A program made the translations under genes and the position numbers. The notes beneath the pieces are model-generated. The model worked only from the letters and a program-made list of their open reading frames with translations. It ran no database searches and was not told the DNA's origin. A stretch of DNA of 11,280 nt, taken from positions 1-11,280 of the forward strand of contig CAJMOO010000063.1 in NCBI GenBank assembly GCA_905215045.1, written 5' to 3'. Shown here piece after piece: positions 3,190 through 11,280 of the stretch. Origin of the DNA: an uncultured bacterium (GTDB taxonomy: Bacteria > Bacillota_A > Clostridia > Lachnospirales > Lachnospiraceae). How positions within the stretch are numbered: position 1 is the stretch's first letter; every line of letters starts with the position of its first letter.

Positions 3190-3220
3190 AAAAAAAGACA
3201 TATTCATATCGAATATGTCT
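3190..3220 (-). terminator. Rho-independent terminator of the tRNA-Val/tRNA-Met transcript
   Basis: A perfect 10-bp stem (3196-3205 with 3211-3220) closes a 5-base loop. On the minus strand it is followed by a run of six U residues (3190-3195). It starts 9 bases after the 3' end of tRNA-Met and ends before the ispF promoter. The stem is AT-rich but complete. Confidence 0.85.
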
Positions 3221-3228
3221 TCCGAAAG

Positions 3229-3302
3229 TAGCGATGAGCAGATTCGAACTGCTGACACTACGGGTATGAACCGTATGCTCTAGCCAACTGAGCTACATCG
3301 CC
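3229..3302 (-). tRNA. tRNA-Met (CAT), elongator type
   Basis: This 74-base gene folds into a full cloverleaf. The acceptor is GGCGATG with CATCGCT (one G-U pair at position 1). The D-arm stem is GCTC/GAGC, the anticodon stem TACGG/CCGTA encloses TTCATAC with anticodon CAT, and the T-arm AGCAG/CTGCT encloses TTCGAAT. The discriminator is A. The anticodon-arm context GGTTCATACCC and the paired first position fit elongator Met rather than the initiator. A lysidine-modified tRNA-Ile(CAT) is less likely. No CCA is encoded, so CCA must be added after transcription. It is the second gene of a two-tRNA transcript. Confidence 0.95.
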
Positions 3303-3335: not shown

Positions 3336-3339
3336 ATAG

Positions 3340-3412
3340 TGGGACCAATAGGACTCGAACCTATGACCCTCTGCTTGTAAGGCAGATGCTCTCCCAGCTG
3401 AGCTATGATCCC
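3340..3412 (-). tRNA. tRNA-Val (TAC)
   Basis: This 73-base gene has a complete cloverleaf. The acceptor is GGGATCA with TGGTCCC (one T-G pair). The D-arm is GCTC/GAGC, the anticodon stem TCTGC/GCAGA encloses CTTACAA with anticodon TAC, and the T-arm ATAGG/CCTAT encloses TTCGAGT. The discriminator is A. No CCA is encoded. It is first in the tRNA transcript, about 30 bases downstream of the expected start site of the promoter at 3451-3479. Confidence 0.96.
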
Positions 3413-3590: not shown

Positions 3591-6500
3591 TTATCGAAAT
3601 TTTCTATGCAATAAAAATAATCCTCCTAAAATCAGAATGATTCCTCCTATGAATGAAAGCTCATCTGTCCGTCCACCTGTCTTTGGAAGATCCAATATAG
3701 AATCATTCGTAACATTGTACGTCAGATGATAGAAGTAATAATCATTTCCCTGTTTGATTGCTTTACTTGTATCCACATTCTGTTTATCCACCTCTGCCTG
3801 TGACATCGTCATTGGCAGTGTAACGATGATTGGTTCTTTTAACAGATTCTTTCCAACCGCTGTCTTTGTCTCTGTGATCGTATAAGTATCAGGAAGCAGT
3901 CCATCAAAAGTGACTTCTCCAGCAGAATCTGTTTTGGCCTTCGCTACTTCTGCTCCATCAGATGATGTGATCACAAATTCGATATCTCTTAATGATTTCC
4001 CCTTAGAATCTTTCTTGATAAGTTTTACAGATCCTTGGATCATCTGATTCATAAACTTCGCTCCACCTGTCAATTGTGCTTTAGCTGTCGTTCCAGTTGG
4101 TCCAATATCGAACGTCACAGTTTCTTTCTCCTGATCGATCGTTGCATTGCTGCTGTTGCTCTTAATATTGAGTAATTTGAAATACTTGATCATACCTCCT
4201 TCATTACACGTATAAGTGCCATATTCCAGATCATCAAACGTCACAGACAGTTCGATCAGATCTCCCGGATGATCTTTCATCTGTTTTTCAACCTCTGCCT
4301 TTGTGAATTTGACTTTCTTCTCATAACTGTGTTTCTTTCCATAGACATCGGTTCCAGTCAGTGTAAATATAAAAGTCGGATCCCCAACATCCATATTCAG
4401 ATTACCTGGTTCCAATGCTTTTGTGATCGTAATGCTTCCTTTCGGCCCTGTACGGTCATGTGTGTTTGTGATTACTGTAAGATCCTGATCATTTTCATCC
4501 GTATCATAGGTTGGTCTGTATCCGATCTCAGATTCTCCCGTGATCAATCCTTCTTCGACTTCTTTCCATGTATAATTGACTTTTTTACCATTGACTTTCA
4601 CAGGAAGTACCTTACTGGACGCTTTCCAGTTATTCTTCGCACTGAGCATCAATGTTTCTTCCACTTTACCATCAGCCAACAGATTAACTAAGACAGACTT
4701 TGGGCGTATGCCATCTTTATTCCCATGATCATTCCATACCTTTTTAACCTTTTTCTTCGTCGTATCTGGTGTATGCGTATTCGTGATCATGATATTCTTC
4801 GTTGTTGTACCATCATCATCTATTGTCTCATTTGTCTCGTAAGTATCGACATATCCTGTTTTTGCATTACCTGTCAGCTTATCATAGACTTCTTCTTTCA
4901 CTTCATACTCAAATGGTTCGCCAGCTTTGTCATACTTATCGAGGCAATGATACGTTACATCATCTGACCAGTTATTTGTTTCGTCTAATGTAATAGCATT
5001 CTTGTATTTCTCACCATTTCTATATAATTGAGCTTTGATCGATATCGGCCTCAGATCATCTCCATTGTCACCATCTTCCCAAACCTTTTGTACATTGATA
5101 TCGACATATTCTGGATTTTCATGGAAGTTCGTAAACGAAATCACATACATCGCATTATTCCAGTGTGTACTCGTCAAAGTATAACCTTCGGGAACATCTT
5201 CACGAAACTCCCACTTTTCACGATCATCCTTCTTGATATCCGTAAACATTGTCCAGTTATTATCTTTTGTCAGTGTATACACCTTTACTTCTTTTGTTGT
5301 CTTATGTGTTGCCTTGATCGTAACAACATCTGGACGGATCTTTGCTACATTGTCATGATCATCCCATATCTTCTTCAATGCAATATAATCCAGTTTCTGG
5401 TTGACTAAAGTATCTGAATCATGCACATATGTTGTTGTATCATTATCCGTATTATTCTCGGCTTTTACATCATGAATGAGATTTTCTTTCGTATCATTGA
5501 TCACTTTACCCTTAAATGTTAATGTCTTGTCCGATTTCTCGTATCCATCTGGTGCGTAGATTTCTTCTACCTCATACATATCACTGTCTGTTCCATCCTT
5601 TGCATAGATATCGGTCGGCAATCCAATAAATTCCAGATATTCAAACTGATCATCCTGTGATGTAGTGGTGGCGATCGTATCACCCTTCTTAAAGATATTT
5701 TCTCCTTTGCTATTAACGATATCTGTTTTCGCTTTTAAGGCAAATATGGCTCCCGCCAGCTTGTTTCCGTCTTGATCAGTCTTGATCAGGTGGATGCCGT
5801 ATTTTTGCAAAGTATCATTAGCTTTGACATGAATACTTGCTTTCTTTGCAACCTTTAAGGCGATATCTTCCTCTTCTGAATCCAGAACCTCTACCGTAGT
5901 CTTGATCGTTTTCTCTGGCAGATCTTTATACGATCCTTGGTTGTTAAAACTGATATTGATCTCGTATTTTCCTGATTTTTCTGCATATGTCGGTGTAAAT
6001 GCCACATCTTTATCCGTCACTTCCACATCTTCTGCTCCATCGTCATCATAAAGGATTCTCCAGCTAAAGTCCTCTGCCTTGAATTTATCACCTTTTAAGA
6101 ACCTGTTCTTTGGCATGGCAACGATCTTTAACGGCTGTTCCTCGATAAACTTATCTTCTTCGATCTTTAAGATCTGATCCATGACATATGTTGTCTTAAG
6201 AACTGGATTTCCATAGAACATCTGGCTGACATCTTCTACATTGGAGGTATTGAAAGATGAAAGATCGAGTGTTTTGATGGAATCCATGGCATAAAACATC
6301 TGACTCATATCCACAACTGCGGATGTATCAATATTTTTAAAATGGATCTCTGTGAGATTCCTGCAATTTTTAAACATTTTAGATGATATTGCATTCATGT
6401 AGATGACCTGTCCGGCTCTTTGACTTGAGATATAACAATCTCCATCATCGTTCCAAAGCACAATACTGCCATCTTTATTCTGAGAAACATCCGTTGTCAC

Positions 6501-9500
6501 AGCTCCTTCTGGTGCACTCTTCCACGTGAAAGTCACAGATTCCGCATCCTTGATCTTCTGGTTCAATTTTTCGCCTTTTTCCAACACATAAATACCTGTA
6601 CTTACATTATTGTCTTCATTTCCAAACGGATCTTCCTTGTCTGGTACTTTATCATCATCACGAATATCATTGATACTTCCTGCAGTTGTATCCCATGTCA
6701 GTTCTACTTCATGTTTTTCCTGATCTTTGATATAGCCTGTCGGAGACTTGATCTCTTTTATGTAATACTTTCCTAAATAGAAGTTAGTTGTTTCTTTTCC
6801 ATCCATATCCTTTCTTGTAAAATGGATCTCCTTCTCTTTTGTCGTTGTCTTTTGATCGATCAGTTCGTCCTTCTTCCATACGAGCGTTCCGTCATCTTTC
6901 TTGATATTCTCATCCGCATACAGCCCATAGACTGCTCCTGCGATCTGATCGTTGTCATAGATAAAACTCTGAGAATCCTTGTCATAATCTGTTAAGATAT
7001 CTCCCGTCTTACTGAACGTAATTTCTCCATAGACTGGCGTATCCATCTGTTCAAACCTGCAGCTTCCATTTCCAGCATTATCGTACGTGATCTTGATGCT
7101 TGTGGATTCCCCGCTTAACTCAAAAGATTTTTCTTCTGCGTCATCCATGTTGTAGCCTGCTGGCGCAGCAGTTTCCTTAATCGTATATTTTCCATATGGA
7201 AGATAGCACTCTGCAGTTCCATCTCCACTCGTTCCTGTAGTCAAAGTTGCCACAATATCCTGATCTTCATCATAGATTTCATAGACTGCATCATTTAACA
7301 GCTTCTTTGTCTCTGATGAACGTTTGACTAGTTCGATCCTGATCTTATTTTCATCATCTTTATACGGACCAAACGTGACTGTCTTATGGACATCAGACTT
7401 GATCAAGACCACATCTTCATCTTCCATCATTTCATGCTTTGGATCACCCTTGATCTGATGCAATGTATAAACACCGATCGCTAACGAGATTGAAGTTGCT
7501 TCTCCTTTTTCATCAGTTATCAGAGTATCGACCACTTCTCCATGCGGATCAATGATCTGAAATTCCGCCCCAGATTCCGGTACATACTTATCTTTATTTA
7601 CGGACATTTGCTTTTTGATCGAAATCTTTGCGGATTTTGTATAATCGTCTTTTAAAACGAATTCATACACTTTGACTTCATCCTCGATCGATGCTTTCAT
7701 TTCTGTGGAATACTGCGGTAGCGCAAGGTCATAGCCTTCGACACCTCTGGTCTGCACGACTATAAACCCTGTCTTCTTTACGAAATCTTTTAGGAGCATC
7801 GCTGCCTTTCCTTCGGAATCTGTGACTAATGTTCCAAGAATCGCATCTCTATTATCTTTTTTCAGTTTTTCAATGTAATGAAGCCTGTCCTGTGACGTTG
7901 CCAATGTCTGATCCTTGAAATCTTTCACCATAGATTCATCCAGTACAACAAACTCAGCCCCTGGTTCTGGTTTAGACTTTCCATTCTTGACCATCGTTTT
8001 TCTGACCCGGATCTTGTTTCCATTATAATAATTATCCAGCTCAAATTTTTTAAATTTCTTATCGCCATCTTTGATCGTTACATCAAAATCATCAGCAATC
8101 TTATAATTATCACTTCCTTTTGTCTGATGAACCGTGTAGATGCCAGGATCTAACTTTCCAGATTGAGCTGCACCATTTTCATCCGTGATCAATGTTTCTA
8201 TGACTTTCTTTGTCGACTGATCGATGATCTGGAATTCTGCCTTATATTCTTCTTTTTTTGTATAAGTTCCAGTTTCCTTATCACTGATCCTTGTAACCTT
8301 TGTCAACATGATCCCTGCATGCTGCTTTGGATCGTTTGATTCAACCTTATAGATCATTTTAGATCCATCAATGCTTACCCATTTGTCCGGTACCATATCA
8401 TATCCATCGGTCGTTTTCGTCTGATGAATACGGTAAGCTCCATAAGGAAGTAAATCTGTTTCTGCGATCCCTTTGTCATTCGTTGTGATCGTCTGTTTTA
8501 AGTTATTCTTGGAATCATAAACCTCAAAAACTGCCTGTGCTTCTGGAACATTTTCCCCGCCAAACGTCTTTACAACCTGTATCGTTCCTTCATATTGCTC
8601 TTCTTTCAGATACTGGGATGTATTTTTATCGACCGTGACTGATATATCATTACCAGATAACTTATATCCCAACGGAGCATACTTCTCATGTAAACGGTAA
8701 TATCCCGGATACAGATCTGTCACTTTTGCATAACCATCCGCATCAGTTACCATCTGTGTCACAAGTGTTCCTGCTTTATAGACAACACTCTTGTTATCGG
8801 AGCCTGTGATATCATGGTCAGCATATAGCTCATAGACAGCATTCTGCAAGTTTGCTTCAACTCCTAGATCCCCTCGTTTATTCTTTACAGTTCCCTGTTT
8901 AAAGATCTCCAGATCACTCTTTTGAAATTCATTGGTATAGTTAAATGTGAATGATCTGACTCCACCCTGTTCCACTTTGCTCTGATCTGTCTGATCTGGG
9001 ATCAGGTGTCCGAATGGGGATTTTGTTTCCCTGACCATCCAAGTGTGGACCGAGGCACTCTTTAAGGCTGAAATCTTCTGCTCTGCAAGTTTTTGTGCTT
9101 CCTGCATTGCCACAGCATATGCTTTTGCCGAAGAATCGTACCAGCCATTATCTGTCGCTTCTTTTTGCTGACTTTTTGAAAGATCGTTCCAATTCTTTAC
9201 ATAAGTCTTTTTCGTTGATGTCACACTATAACTTACCGTTCTTTGAACAGTATAAGAAGCTTCTCCATTGCCATCGGTTGTTACACTTCCTTGATAATTC
9301 CCATCCATATAGATCTGAAATACTGCTCCAGAAAGCCCTGCTCTTGTTTCCGCATCTTTCTTTTTGATCTTGATCCTTACATTATCTGGGCTGGTTCCTG
9401 ACTTTGTTGCACTCGTTTTCGCTTTTTCAATATCTGGCGGTGTATGACGAAATCCGAACAAAACCTGATGAGAATCCAGTTTCTTCTTTTTCACACATTT

Positions 9501-10061
9501 CTTCACTGTATAATAGTAGATCGTTCCTTCTGGATCCTGATCACTGATCATTTTACAGAACTTTTTTGCATCTTTCTGCGAATAACCTCTGTCCACATTT
9601 TTTCCTGCCTGATAAACGGTATTTTGCTTATTCGCTCCATGTCCACATGCCCAGATGTATGCCTGACACAATGACAGATCTTTTGTATTCTTGCCGCTTG
9701 ACCTGAAATACCAGTTTAATGCTTTTGCAATTCCCTTTTTTTCATAAGTTGCTGCATTGATTGTCTTGTATTTTAAGGTATCTCCAGAACACATGGTCTT
9801 TCCAGAGTTTAAGCAAAACACTCTGTGTCCGTCAGCTGTCATACTCCACAGACCTTCTGATGCAGGACGATCGATCTCTGAAATCTTATTATTTGATAAT
9901 GCCTGGCTCATCACCAGTTTGGCTTCTCCTGTGAAAGCCTTGACGTCTCTATTCTTCAGGAACAGTGATTCTCCTGAACCACTCAGATACATTGTCATGA
10001 TCATCAGGAGGGTAAGAATACTTACCGATATCTTTTTACAGATCGTCTTCATTTGTTTCAA
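3591..10061 (-). CDS. Giant LPXTG-anchored adhesin: thioester domain, SpaA/Cna-B-like stalk, BspA-type LRR insert
   Basis: This is a predicted cell-wall-anchored surface adhesin of 2156 residues, numbered from the TTG start. Residues 9-28 are a hydrophobic signal-peptide core, with possible cleavage after VKA near 42. Residues 46-200 resemble a thioester domain, with Cys83 in VFCLNSG and Gln133 in CQAYIW as the candidate bond. SpaA-like domains follow at about 227-380 (with a helical-looking insertion), 382-483, 492-576, 583-680, 682-808, 811-900, 906-998 and 1011-1135. Next are BspA/DUF285-type repeats (1229-1284, in a region from about 1150) and an Ig-like stretch (1312-1393). The rest is a SpaA-like domain (1421-1535), three Cna-B domains (1556-1869), a further prealbumin-like domain (1873-2008), a final SpaA domain (2009-2120), LPKTG (2125-2129), a membrane span and an RKFR tail. 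No YPKN-type pilin motif or sortase gene is visible, so a monomeric fibre is likelier than a pilus subunit. It is co-transcribed with the InlB-repeat gene 16 bases upstream. Confidence 0.92.
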   Translation of the reverse strand: MKQMKTICKKISVSILTLLMIMTMYLSGSGESLFLKNRDVKAFTGEAKLVMSQALSNNKISEIDRPASEGLWSMTADGHRVFCLNSGKTMCSGDTLKYKTINAATYEKKGIAKALNWYFRSSGKNTKDLSLCQAYIWACGHGANKQNTVYQAGKNVDRGYSQKDAKKFCKMISDQDPEGTIYYYTVKKCVKKKKLDSHQVLFGFRHTPPDIEKAKTSATKSGTSPDNVRIKIKKKDAETRAGLSGAVFQIYMDGNYQGSVTTDGNGEASYTVQRTVSYSVTSTKKTYVKNWNDLSKSQQKEATDNGWYDSSAKAYAVAMQEAQKLAEQKISALKSASVHTWMVRETKSPFGHLIPDQTDQSKVEQGGVRSFTFNYTNEFQKSDLEIFKQGTVKNKRGDLGVEANLQNAVYELYADHDITGSDNKSVVYKAGTLVTQMVTDADGYAKVTDLYPGYYRLHEKYAPLGYKLSGNDISVTVDKNTSQYLKEEQYEGTIQVVKTFGGENVPEAQAVFEVYDSKNNLKQTITTNDKGIAETDLLPYGAYRIHQTKTTDGYDMVPDKWVSIDGSKMIYKVESNDPKQHAGIMLTKVTRISDKETGTYTKKEEYKAEFQIIDQSTKKVIETLITDENGAAQSGKLDPGIYTVHQTKGSDNYKIADDFDVTIKDGDKKFKKFELDNYYNGNKIRVRKTMVKNGKSKPEPGAEFVVLDESMVKDFKDQTLATSQDRLHYIEKLKKDNRDAILGTLVTDSEGKAAMLLKDFVKKTGFIVVQTRGVEGYDLALPQYSTEMKASIEDEVKVYEFVLKDDYTKSAKISIKKQMSVNKDKYVPESGAEFQIIDPHGEVVDTLITDEKGEATSISLAIGVYTLHQIKGDPKHEMMEDEDVVLIKSDVHKTVTFGPYKDDENKIRIELVKRSSETKKLLNDAVYEIYDEDQDIVATLTTGTSGDGTAECYLPYGKYTIKETAAPAGYNMDDAEEKSFELSGESTSIKITYDNAGNGSCRFEQMDTPVYGEITFSKTGDILTDYDKDSQSFIYDNDQIAGAVYGLYADENIKKDDGTLVWKKDELIDQKTTTKEKEIHFTRKDMDGKETTNFYLGKYYIKEIKSPTGYIKDQEKHEVELTWDTTAGSINDIRDDDKVPDKEDPFGNEDNNVSTGIYVLEKGEKLNQKIKDAESVTFTWKSAPEGAVTTDVSQNKDGSIVLWNDDGDCYISSQRAGQVIYMNAISSKMFKNCRNLTEIHFKNIDTSAVVDMSQMFYAMDSIKTLDLSSFNTSNVEDVSQMFYGNPVLKTTYVMDQILKIEEDKFIEEQPLKIVAMPKNRFLKGDKFKAEDFSWRILYDDDGAEDVEVTDKDVAFTPTYAEKSGKYEINISFNNQGSYKDLPEKTIKTTVEVLDSEEEDIALKVAKKASIHVKANDTLQKYGIHLIKTDQDGNKLAGAIFALKAKTDIVNSKGENIFKKGDTIATTTSQDDQFEYLEFIGLPTDIYAKDGTDSDMYEVEEIYAPDGYEKSDKTLTFKGKVINDTKENLIHDVKAENNTDNDTTTYVHDSDTLVNQKLDYIALKKIWDDHDNVAKIRPDVVTIKATHKTTKEVKVYTLTKDNNWTMFTDIKKDDREKWEFREDVPEGYTLTSTHWNNAMYVISFTNFHENPEYVDINVQKVWEDGDNGDDLRPISIKAQLYRNGEKYKNAITLDETNNWSDDVTYHCLDKYDKAGEPFEYEVKEEVYDKLTGNAKTGYVDTYETNETIDDDGTTTKNIMITNTHTPDTTKKKVKKVWNDHGNKDGIRPKSVLVNLLADGKVEETLMLSAKNNWKASSKVLPVKVNGKKVNYTWKEVEEGLITGESEIGYRPTYDTDENDQDLTVITNTHDRTGPKGSITITKALEPGNLNMDVGDPTFIFTLTGTDVYGKKHSYEKKVKFTKAEVEKQMKDHPGDLIELSVTFDDLEYGTYTCNEGGMIKYFKLLNIKSNSSNATIDQEKETVTFDIGPTGTTAKAQLTGGAKFMNQMIQGSVKLIKKDSKGKSLRDIEFVITSSDGAEVAKAKTDSAGEVTFDGLLPDTYTITETKTAVGKNLLKEPIIVTLPMTMSQAEVDKQNVDTSKAIKQGNDYYFYHLTYNVTNDSILDLPKTGGRTDELSFIGGIILILGGLFLLHRKFR
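3594..3689 (-). other. Cell-wall sorting signal of the adhesin
   Basis: LPKTGG (LPKTG encoded at 3675-3689) is followed by a short polar linker, a hydrophobic span of about 15-17 residues rich in Ile, Leu and Gly, and the basic C-terminal tail HRKFR. This is the complete three-part substrate of a class A/housekeeping-type sortase, which would cleave between Thr and Gly and attach the protein to peptidoglycan. Confidence 0.95.
4455..5402 (-). repeat. Three tandem Cna-B domains in the adhesin
   Basis: Three consecutive domains each open with a K-x-W-x-D signature followed by RP: KKIWDDHDN, QKVWEDGDN and KKVWNDHGN. Each contains an NNW motif mid-domain (DNNW, TNNW, KNNW). Each has a candidate catalytic Glu (1621, about 1723, about 1834), and each ends in FTN or ITNTH, carrying the Asn expected to bond with the first-strand Lys. 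All parts for Lys-Asn isopeptide cross-links appear present. This matches the Cna-B family (PF05738 type). Confidence 0.85.
6210..6377 (-). repeat. BspA/DUF285-type 26-residue leucine-rich repeats inside the adhesin
   Basis: Two full 26-residue units and the start of a third begin at Met1229, Met1255 and Met1281 of the adhesin, each with MF. The middle unit contains TLDLSSFNTSNVEDVSQ, the hallmark of the DUF285/BspA-like repeat. The first unit reads FKNIDTSAVVDMSQ at the same position, and the third decays after MFYGNPVLK. A preceding segment (about 1150-1228) resembles the cap that often comes before such repeats. These repeats usually occur in long arrays that mediate binding; here only two to three remain. 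Confidence 0.8.
7353..8594 (-). other. Block of four SpaA-like domains with Gln at the usual Glu position
   Basis: Adhesin residues about 490-903 hold four consecutive prealbumin-like domains. Their Y-x-x-x-E-T motif is replaced by RIHQTK (Gln547), TVHQTK (Gln646), IVVQTR (Gln770) and TLHQIK (Gln869). The domains on both sides keep Glu (345, 459, 963, 1103 and later). First-strand Lys residues remain (for example VVKTFG, VRKTM, IKKQM). The second and fourth domains of the block are close copies of each other. Confidence 0.75.
9489..9926 (-). other. Predicted Cys-Gln thioester domain (TED) at the adhesin N-terminus
   Basis: Right after the signal peptide, the segment GHRVFCLNSG is followed about 50 residues later by LCQAYIWACG. 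This matches the thioester-domain pattern (PF08341 type) of a Cys in a strand and a Gln in a helical Q-x-x-[IV]-W motif. The intervening KGIAKALNWYFRSS fits the helix usually found there. In characterised streptococcal examples the Cys-Gln thioester lets the adhesin bind host proteins covalently. Candidate residues are Cys83 and Gln133. The segment also carries Cys91, Cys132, Cys139, Cys169 and Cys189, which is unusually many. Confidence 0.78.
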
Positions 10062-10069
10062 ACTTTCTT

Positions 10070-10076
10070 CCTCCTT
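10070..10076 (-). promoter_or_regulatory. Ribosome binding site that sets a TTG start for the adhesin
   Basis: AAGGAGG on the minus strand lies 8 bases before TTG (10059-10061), but 17 bases before the next in-frame ATG (10050-10052) and downstream of the ATG at 10133. Translation from TTG gives a short basic leader and then the signal-peptide core. The upstream gene's TAA is immediately before this site (10078-10080), so the two genes are tightly coupled. Confidence 0.8.
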
Positions 10077-10077
10077 T

Positions 10078-11280
10078 TTACTTGTAACGGTTTGTGAAAT
10101 ATCCTGGCTGCCCTTCCTTGTCGATCCTTCCATACTCAGAATCTACGTAGTCTCTCGAAAATCCAGTTCCATTCTGCCCTTCCAGTTCGATCGAGCCATT
10201 AAACATGCCGTCATCATGAATAATGTTGTGTGTGTCAAATGATCCATCTGTTTTCTTCCAGACAGCATACAATTCACAAGTCTGTCCAGCATCGCAGAGA
10301 GTATTGACTGCCTGTCTGTCGGTATATTTTGCTTTGATCGCATTCGGATCTTCACTCCATCCAAGGAAGGTATATCCCGGCCGTTCAAATGTATTTGCTG
10401 GCAGGATATCATCCTGTCCATATTTTAATTCCACAGTCTTTTTGCTGCCTGATGCACCATTTCCATCAAATGTTACTTCATAAGAGTTCTTGGACCAGAC
10501 AGCATAAAGTCTCATACCCTCCGTGTTACTCCATGTGATCGTCTCTTCTGGAGAATACCGTGCTCTCACCGCATGTTTATCTGTATTCCATCCAACAAAG
10601 GCATAGCCTTTTTTCGTGTATCCATTCTCAGCAAAGCTGTAATTTTGATCGTACGTGGCTTTCCCATCATTCACATATCCAGAATCTTCTCCATTTCCAT
10701 CATAGTTTACAGTGTATGTATTCGCTGTCCACTGGGCTGTCTCTGTATAATTACCACATACCAGCCAGCCTGTATTAGACATCCATTTTGTTCCTTCATC
10801 CAGCCATCCTTCCAAGGTATAACCTCTTCTTGATACCGTTGGAAACGAAAAATAATCTCCATCCGTAAAATTCCATGTTACATCTGCACCATCTCCACCA
10901 TTTCCGTTGTAATAAATGCTGCGGCTTGGCTTTTCCAGATTCAGATTTATAGAACACCAGTCATAAGTTTTCCATCCATCTCTGTCAGCAGAGGCCACTC
11001 CAACCAATCCAGTACTGACATGGATATTTACTGATTTCCAATGTTCTTGAGTATCATGATAGGAATTTTCCCAAAATCCATCATTTCCTCCGCAATAAAG
11101 CGTTATATCCTTGCTCGGATCTGAAAATACTGGTTTATCCACCGTTACCCATTCCCAGGATCGATGCTGTTCATGGGCCGGTAACAGATACCAGACTTTG
11201 ATCGTTAAAAGTGTATAGTTGTTGTTACTGTTCTTCTCTGAATATATCGTCTGTTTATTCACTGTAAGCTTATAATCTCC
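10078..11280 (-). CDS. Secreted/surface protein with three InlB-type B-repeats (C-terminal part; 5' end outside window)
   Basis: The frame is open from the window edge to the TAA at 10078, giving 400 visible residues. There is no convincing internal start: the first candidate, a GTG near 11260, has no ribosome binding site and lies within continuous coding sequence. Visible residues about 120-186, 187-264 and 266-343 are three Listeria-Bacteroides repeats (InlB B-repeat/Flg_new, PF09479 type). They show YxVxFDGNG openings, RPGYTFLGW or KKGYAFVGW centres and LYAVW ends; the first copy is the most diverged. Residues 1-115 are Trp-rich and not recognised. The tail after 344 ends in YFTNRYK with no LPXTG or membrane span. 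The gene is therefore either a secreted protein or one held on the surface by its missing N-terminal part. Such repeats are extracellular beta-grasp-like modules. It is co-transcribed with the giant adhesin, whose ribosome binding site begins right after this stop. Confidence 0.88.
   Translation of the reverse strand, partial: GDYKLTVNKQTIYSEKNSNNNYTLLTIKVWYLLPAHEQHRSWEWVTVDKPVFSDPSKDITLYCGGNDGFWENSYHDTQEHWKSVNIHVSTGLVGVASADRDGWKTYDWCSINLNLEKPSRSIYYNGNGGDGADVTWNFTDGDYFSFPTVSRRGYTLEGWLDEGTKWMSNTGWLVCGNYTETAQWTANTYTVNYDGNGEDSGYVNDGKATYDQNYSFAENGYTKKGYAFVGWNTDKHAVRARYSPEETITWSNTEGMRLYAVWSKNSYEVTFDGNGASGSKKTVELKYGQDDILPANTFERPGYTFLGWSEDPNAIKAKYTDRQAVNTLCDAGQTCELYAVWKKTDGSFDTHNIIHDDGMFNGSIELEGQNGTGFSRDYVDSEYGRIDKEGQPGYFTNRYK

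Follow-up and report, generated by a model that had tools for sequence, protein, structure and literature searches.

Organization of the adhesin gene and its product

The window analyzed here comprises 11,280 nucleotides (nt) of contig CAJMOO010000063.1, to the full length of which all coordinates refer, and carries on its minus strand a gene (3591..10061) for a surface protein of 2156 residues that is predicted to bear a reactive thioester and probably forms the tip of a pilus assembled by sortases. Genome G001 matches the whole window over positions 2278722-2290001 at 99.14% identity with no gaps, and the host is presumably an Anaerostipes-like gut bacterium. Among the best 80 of 594 matches to ispF, with identities of 68-82%, two are from Anaerostipes (78 and 82%), in a selection that may omit the species of the window itself. 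The TTG at 10059-10061 is the best choice of start codon, as the sequence AGGAGG lies 8 nt 5′ of it (10070-10075), and the stop codon occupies 3591-3593; this start agrees with the residue numbering of an earlier note on the DNA, which had been made from the sequence alone.

The product, all parts of which are encoded on the minus strand, begins with a hydrophobic stretch ending in V-K-A that is read as a signal peptide (residues 1-42, 9936..10061), probably cleaved after VKA; Ala42 is invariant in all 15 non-redundant representatives of the protein family described below. The predicted thioester domain (TED) spans residues about 43-208 (9438..9935). It is followed by a stalk in which Pfam recognizes nine SpaA and three Cna_B domains, one DUF285 and one Big_3 stretch, arranged as a first block of SpaA/CnaB-like domains (residues 218-1130, 6672..9410), a DUF285 or BspA-type repeat stretch in mid-stalk (residues 1227-1285, 6207..6383), the Big_3 stretch (residues 1317-1384, 5910..6113), and a second block (residues 1423-2095, 3777..5795) composed of SpaA, three Cna_B, a stretch without assignment, and SpaA. 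The LPKTG sorting motif is located at residues 2125-2129 (3675..3689) and precedes a hydrophobic span and an RKFR end. Judged by its signal peptide and LPKTG motif, the protein is exported. The earlier note had described a signal peptide, an N-terminal TED on an LPXTG-anchored CnaB-type stalk of roughly a dozen domains, and an LPKTG anchor, and in these features it is supported, the count of domains being a fair estimate for nine SpaA and three Cna_B domains with DUF285 and Big_3 in addition.

The N-terminal domain resembles thioester domains in fold and profile

Conservation was assessed in a family set of 231 distinct proteins, consisting of the window protein and the listed matches of two protein searches; these matched 241 and 176 proteins, of which the best 120 each were used, and more distant matches fall outside the 231. 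The 15 representatives share less than 85% identity with one another, and one of them (P0136) was omitted from the full-length alignment (n = 14).

Two predicted models of the N-terminal domain, the second from five runs with mean pLDDT of 80.6 to 60.5, were compared with the PDB by fold, and the top 10 and top 12 rows, respectively, are TED adhesins, among which we count FNE (5dcq), although its PDB title does not identify it as such. Profile comparison points the same way. A profile of the family (15 rows) aligned to that of 22 PF08341-positive TEDs (31 loci, less 9 near-identical ones) with a score of 46.9 and a probability of 93.3, as compared to a maximum of 27.5 in 200 column shuffles and 20.5 for the reversed profile, and a hidden Markov model (HMM) built from the 22 TEDs recovered 15 of 15 family members at E <0.005 with the database size set to 25000. 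Additionally, a nine-domain family profile matched 4 of 299 family genomes, namely G001 itself and three genomes with remote proteins at E-values per genome of 2.1e-8, 8.0e-6, and 5.0e-5, and the best Pfam match of all three remote proteins (in no set order L034, L035, and L036) is PF08341 (E-values of 3e-4, 0.0076, and 0.024), under the curated cut-off. By fold and profile, then, the N-terminal domain is a TED, which sustains the corresponding prediction of the earlier note. A scan of genome contigs with the family alignment yielded 80 stretches that fit the pattern, none of which was confirmed.

Genome G001 encodes a second TED protein (L039, 10172-13603), which exceeds the PF08341 cut-off and contains VaFE repeats; its gene adjoins TcpF and other conjugation genes, and it may be the mating adhesin of an integrative element. 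The PF08341 family search found this gene once and missed it in a larger genome set; because of this miss, absences scored in such searches are not firm, and the true presence may be higher than the counts indicate.

Assignment of the thioester-forming residues

Publications are cited here by PMC number from the portions of their text that were available. In TEDs, the thioester Cys sits in a [YFL]C-hydrophobic-hydrophilic motif and the thioester Gln in a C-terminal strand within a weak PhiQxPhiPhi motif, while the Gln and Trp of a helical TQxxPhiW motif are dispensable for the bond (PMC4450167, PMC6194298). In the window protein, F82-C83-L84-N85 fits the first of these motifs (Cys83 codon, 9813..9815): Phe, Cys, and Leu occupy positions 82-84 in 227 of the 231 proteins, with Asn (219) or Asp (8) at position 85, and the other four proteins start downstream. 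The segment CQAYIW (residues 132-137, 9651..9668) corresponds to the helical motif, with Gln133 (9663..9665), Ile136, and Trp137 each present in 231 of 231 proteins and a first position that is Thr in 155, Cys in 67, Val in 6, Ile in 2, and Ala in 1; in the model, Gln133 (residue 92) falls within helix 85-100. The weak PhiQxPhiPhi motif is found around Gln199 (9465..9467, in HQVLFG), although the preceding residue, His, is not hydrophobic. All 231 proteins have Gln at position 199, flanked by His before it and by V/M/K/T, L/M, and F/Y after it. In the model (residue 158) it lies one residue before the last strand (159-164), and no other Gln occurs in the final two strands or in the turn that joins them.

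The structural register supports the assignment of Gln199. The published thioester Gln residues are 267 in CpTIE, 247 in PnTIE, and 261 in SfbI (PMC4450167, PMC6194298). The VIA ranges end with model residue 166 or 167 on residue 275 or 276 of CpTIE, 255 of PnTIE, and 270 of SfbI, and if these range ends are ungapped, Gln199 falls on Gln267, Gln247, and Gln261, respectively. For Cpa, whose thioester Gln is taken to be residue 575, the same sum yields 575 in all but one of five rows, the exception being 574. Gln199 is also conserved in L034, L036, and L048, the three distinct remote proteins whose alignment reaches that column; L034 and L036 are part of the profile used for the alignment and L048 is not.

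Because of the register with the published residues, the position at the last strand, and the invariance of Gln199, the thioester is most likely formed by Cys83 and Gln199. The earlier note had paired Cys83 with Gln133. At the frequencies given above, neither residue is a chance occurrence, and the choice of Cys83 is retained; Gln133, as the Gln of the helical TQxxPhiW motif, is very probably wrong as the partner, and the interval given there (9489-9926, residues 46-191) ends before Gln199. Two other residues were considered and rejected: Cys132, as the position is Cys in only 67 of 231 proteins, and Gln151, which is invariant and located in the third helix of the model.

Class of the domain and its additional cysteines

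In class II TEDs, a β-sandwich of ∼75 residues is inserted after the last helix and ahead of the last hairpin (PMC6194298). In the window protein only 6 residues separate model helix 121-132 from strand 139-147, and the domain is therefore class I-like; its Cys83-Gln199 spacing is short, at 116. It further contains four extra cysteines, Cys91 (9789..9791), Cys139 (9645..9647), Cys169 (9555..9557), and Cys189 (9495..9497), each of which is invariant in all 231 proteins. Where these positions are aligned in relatives outside the family, Cys occurs in 0 of 28 rows, and an attempt to pair the four by partial loss failed for want of any outside row that has one of them. As an even four remain once Cys83 forms the thioester, two disulphides or a four-Cys metal site are suggested, which would probably stabilize or gate the TED. 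Searches of G001 for DSBA (PF01323) and VKOR (PF07884), the only oxidases covered, gave no match, with 3 of 14 control genomes matching for VKOR and 8 of 14 for DSBA; since oxidases beyond these two lay outside the searches, disulphides stay compatible with this genome. The word 'disulfide' is absent from PMC4450167 and 'cysteine' from PMC6194298. Elsewhere in the protein, all 14 aligned representatives keep Cys1233, in the DUF285/BspA-type stretch, and 12 of them keep Cys952.

A relocated Glu in four stalk domains

Among the 14 aligned representatives, the E-box Glu is invariant in eight stalk domains, and in a ninth it is Glu in 13 and a gap in 1. Four consecutive domains (residues 490-900, 7362..8594) carry instead an invariant Gln in the E-box (residues 547, 646, 770, and 869; 14 of 14 representatives). 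These Gln-type domains keep the invariant Lys of the first strand and gain an invariant Glu three residues before A-x-F, which places this early-strand Glu 9 to 17 residues after the Lys; in CnaB-type domains the catalytic Glu follows the Lys by at least 50 residues, according to the part of a published table that was available (PMC12617251). At TED-linked loci outside the lineage of the window, 85 distinct domain rows have an E-box Glu in 72, Gln in 12, and a gap in 1, and the early-strand Glu is present in 12 of 12 rows with Gln and in 0 of 72 rows with Glu (12 of the 72 being gapped there). The pair of Gln and early Glu did not recur in 75 rows from a wider sample of the phylum, where the E-box is Glu in 68 (3 of them also with an early Glu), Gln without an early Glu in 1, and another residue or a gap in 6. 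Both row counts ignore kinship and exclude the rows of the G001 cassette and of the window protein, and their columns derive from an HMM of five stalk domains of the same family.

These features suggest a further, decidedly tentative proposal, to which we give little credence as a whole: the extra cysteines might act as a redox- or metal-responsive switch for the thioester, so that the tip, a gated covalent hook, would react in one particular niche of the gut only, and the stalk might at the same time employ an isopeptide domain of rearranged layout, its catalytic Glu shifted from the E-box, where Gln has replaced it, to the early strand. The relocated acid in the four stalk domains offers a testable prediction on isopeptide chemistry.

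A pilus cassette at a tRNA site

Upstream of the adhesin gene, the window holds the 3′ part of a gene for a Listeria-Bacteroides repeat protein (10078..11280, minus strand), the stop codon of which is 16 nt from the TTG. This protein has a signal peptide, as seen from its start in L038 of G001, and no LPXTG end. In G001, the complete cassette is tightly packed on one strand in the order pilin, sortase, sortase, Listeria-Bacteroides repeat protein, and, last, the TED protein. Both sortases are of class C (NF033745, 197.5 and 270.7 bits against a cut-off of 160), and the pilin is a major pilin of the SpaH/EbpB type (NF033902, 127.9 bits against a cut-off of 95), in which YPKN and LPMTG were identified by reading. 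A pilin motif and an LPXTG pilin that adjoins a class C sortase are thus present, as in a SpaA-type pilus locus.

On the other side of the adhesin gene, between it and ispF, are situated tRNA-Val (3339-3412) and tRNA-Met (3228-3302), with a terminator-like hairpin after them (3193-3223). Beyond the cassette, G001 has a gene for a C39-like peptidase and a HAD-type gene. The genes of four relatives (G004, G008, G009, and G010) are arranged as HAD, SbcD/SbcC-like, C39-like, tRNA-Val, tRNA-Met, and ispF, and in G002 it is HAD, tRNA-Val, tRNA-Met, and ispF; apart from the tRNAs and ispF, gene names in the loci of relatives were assigned by reading. The pilus cassette is absent from the same tRNA site in all five of these relatives, and the tRNA-Val/tRNA-Met site therefore marks where the cassette is present or absent. 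The distance from HAD to ispF is ∼5.6 kb in G005, ∼0.5 kb in G006, and ∼0.5 kb in G011 vs 13.5 kb in G001, and G003 and G007 have no close HAD gene on the contig with ispF. Of 11 genomes of the genus, one was found to have the TED domain and three the pilin, which in two cases is only distantly similar (24-34% identity). Farther along the window, positions 1469-2659 encode a GNAT-type acetyltransferase that is weakly similar to Eis and scores far under curated cut-offs.

A probable pilus tip adhesin and the alternatives

Because the gene ends a pilus cassette with class C sortases and a major pilin, its product is probably a pilus tip adhesin like Cpa. We regard it as likely, taking all parts of the claim together, that an exported TED protein with a Cys83-Gln199 thioester serves as the tip subunit of a sortase-assembled pilus, on a stalk of about twelve CnaB domains; the role at the tip, rather than at the base or as a free TIE protein, is the one that the arrangement suggests. 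The earlier note had envisaged a free-standing giant fibre, for which we would substitute the tip subunit as the more probable form, given that the same cassette encodes class C sortases. In the proposed mechanism, the lysine of the YPKN motif in the major pilin would be linked to the LPKTG end by a class C sortase, the gene of which lies two genes upstream, and the reactive thioester would thereby sit at the distal tip of a covalently joined fibre. There the thioester would acylate a suitable amine, such as a lysine on a protein from the host, from mucus, or from bacteria, and, by analogy to characterized TEDs, the attachment would be irreversible. The pilus could in this way bond covalently to a partner surface, whether host, mucus, or bacterial.

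A number of observations weigh against this interpretation. PF08341 gives no match for the N-terminal 226 residues (E <= 10) or for the whole protein (E <= 1), and because its cut-off is not reached, the domain is not filed as a PF08341 hit but as a TED by fold and motifs only; the check with this model that the earlier note had recommended was thus negative directly and positive by way of the remote relatives. No TED model of NCBIfam matched either the whole protein or its N-terminus, and a PDB sequence search with the domain returned 17 matches (best E-value 0.089), none to a TED, which we take as chance. Scaled by the 299 genomes, the E-values leave two of the three remote proteins weak (∼2e-3 and 1.5e-2). 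The reverse search is weaker: at E <1e-3, the family HMM retrieves only 2 of the 22 classical TEDs. Taken singly, the window sequence aligns to the TED profile over 46 columns that stop short of Gln133. The register of Gln199 derives from range ends and not from coordinates, class II rows, with their insertions, do not permit the sum, and PF08341-positive TEDs leave the Gln199 column unaligned, with gaps in 23 of 28 rows. Finally, the window does not reach the pilus genes, for which G001 was read instead, and a housekeeping sortase could anchor an LPKTG protein by itself.

This last point leads to the alternative that fares best, namely that the protein is a TIE-type monomeric adhesin, wall-anchored alone by a housekeeping sortase, while the pilus genes act separately. 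TED proteins are mostly described, in the portion of the source available, as single LPXTG-anchored TIE proteins (PMC4450167), a chain of 2156 residues is long by itself, and in the stretches read around the TED genes L034, L036, and L035 (L053, L054, and L057) a scan for the TLxTC motif revealed no sortase. The adhesin gene is, however, the tightly packed end of a five-gene cassette that is present or absent as a block, and we hold a monomeric adhesin to be unlikely, if worth keeping in view.

It is less likely still that the TED fold has a lost or blocked thioester, so that the domain would be a non-covalent binding head, its cysteines tied up as disulphides or in a metal site. Such a head would accord with the presence of five invariant cysteines in so small a domain, the redox state of which is left ambiguous by the missing DSBA and VKOR matches in G001. 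If the thioester were dead, however, its residues should drift, whereas Cys83 and Gln199 are invariant where present and Cys83 stands in the exact [YFL]C-hydrophobic-hydrophilic context.

A part in conjugation, in which the TED would aid mating-pair formation, is suggested by the TED adhesin reported from the conjugation operon of pLS20 of Bacillus subtilis (PMC8092201) and by the conjugation genes, TcpF among them, beside the second TED gene of G001, but it is very improbable for the window gene, the neighbours of which are pilus genes, tRNAs, and ispF, with no conjugation gene recognized by reading of open reading frames (ORFs) across 26 kb around it in G001 (HMMs were applied to some of the ORFs only). 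That the domain is not a TED at all, with chance Cys and Gln motifs in another Cys-containing fold such as a protease, is scarcely credible in light of the fold and profile comparisons that favour a TED, despite the negative direct HMM and PDB sequence searches.

Comparison with known systems

Studies of covalent adhesion through thioesters have dealt chiefly with pathogens. If the interpretation is true, a pilus tipped by a TED in an anaerobic commensal of the gut would suggest that irreversible attachment serves normal colonization as well, and a TED missed by the standard domain model would suggest that Pfam counts of TEDs are too low; L034, L035, and L036, all under the PF08341 cut-off, likewise suggest that further TEDs may escape the current model. 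The open-licence literature contained no paper pairing Anaerostipes with 'thioester domain', and a search of it for Anaerostipes with pilus and sortase gave no title about pili of its own. The kind of system is known, and what sets this variant apart, its extra cysteines and relocated Glu, goes unmentioned in the available portions of the TED papers.

CpTIE from Clostridium perfringens (PDB 5a0d and 5a0g) is 13-14% identical to the window TED, has a Cys-Gln spacing of 129 as compared to 116, and is described in the portion available as a TIE protein and not as a pilus component (PMC4450167). A giant adhesin of Mobiluncus mulieris likewise combines a giant chain with a predicted N-terminal TED; the available portion of its description reports a disulphide in stalk domain 47I and not in the TED, as well as ester domains, and mentions no pilus operon (PMC10619420). 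SaTIE, BaTIE, and EfmTIE86 (PDB 6fx6, 6fwv, and 6fwy) are of class II, with a β-sandwich of ∼75 residues at the place where the window TED has 6.

Cpa (Spy0125; PDB 2xic, 2xi9, 4bug, and 4c0z), the adhesin at the pilus tip in Streptococcus pyogenes, is much smaller than the window protein, and the identity to the window TED is 9-13%. Unlike in the window TED, extra cysteines are not mentioned for Cpa in the available text, in which one TED of Cpa lies inside an isopeptide domain (PMC6194298). What the two would have in common is the principal feature, a pilus that is tipped by a TED.
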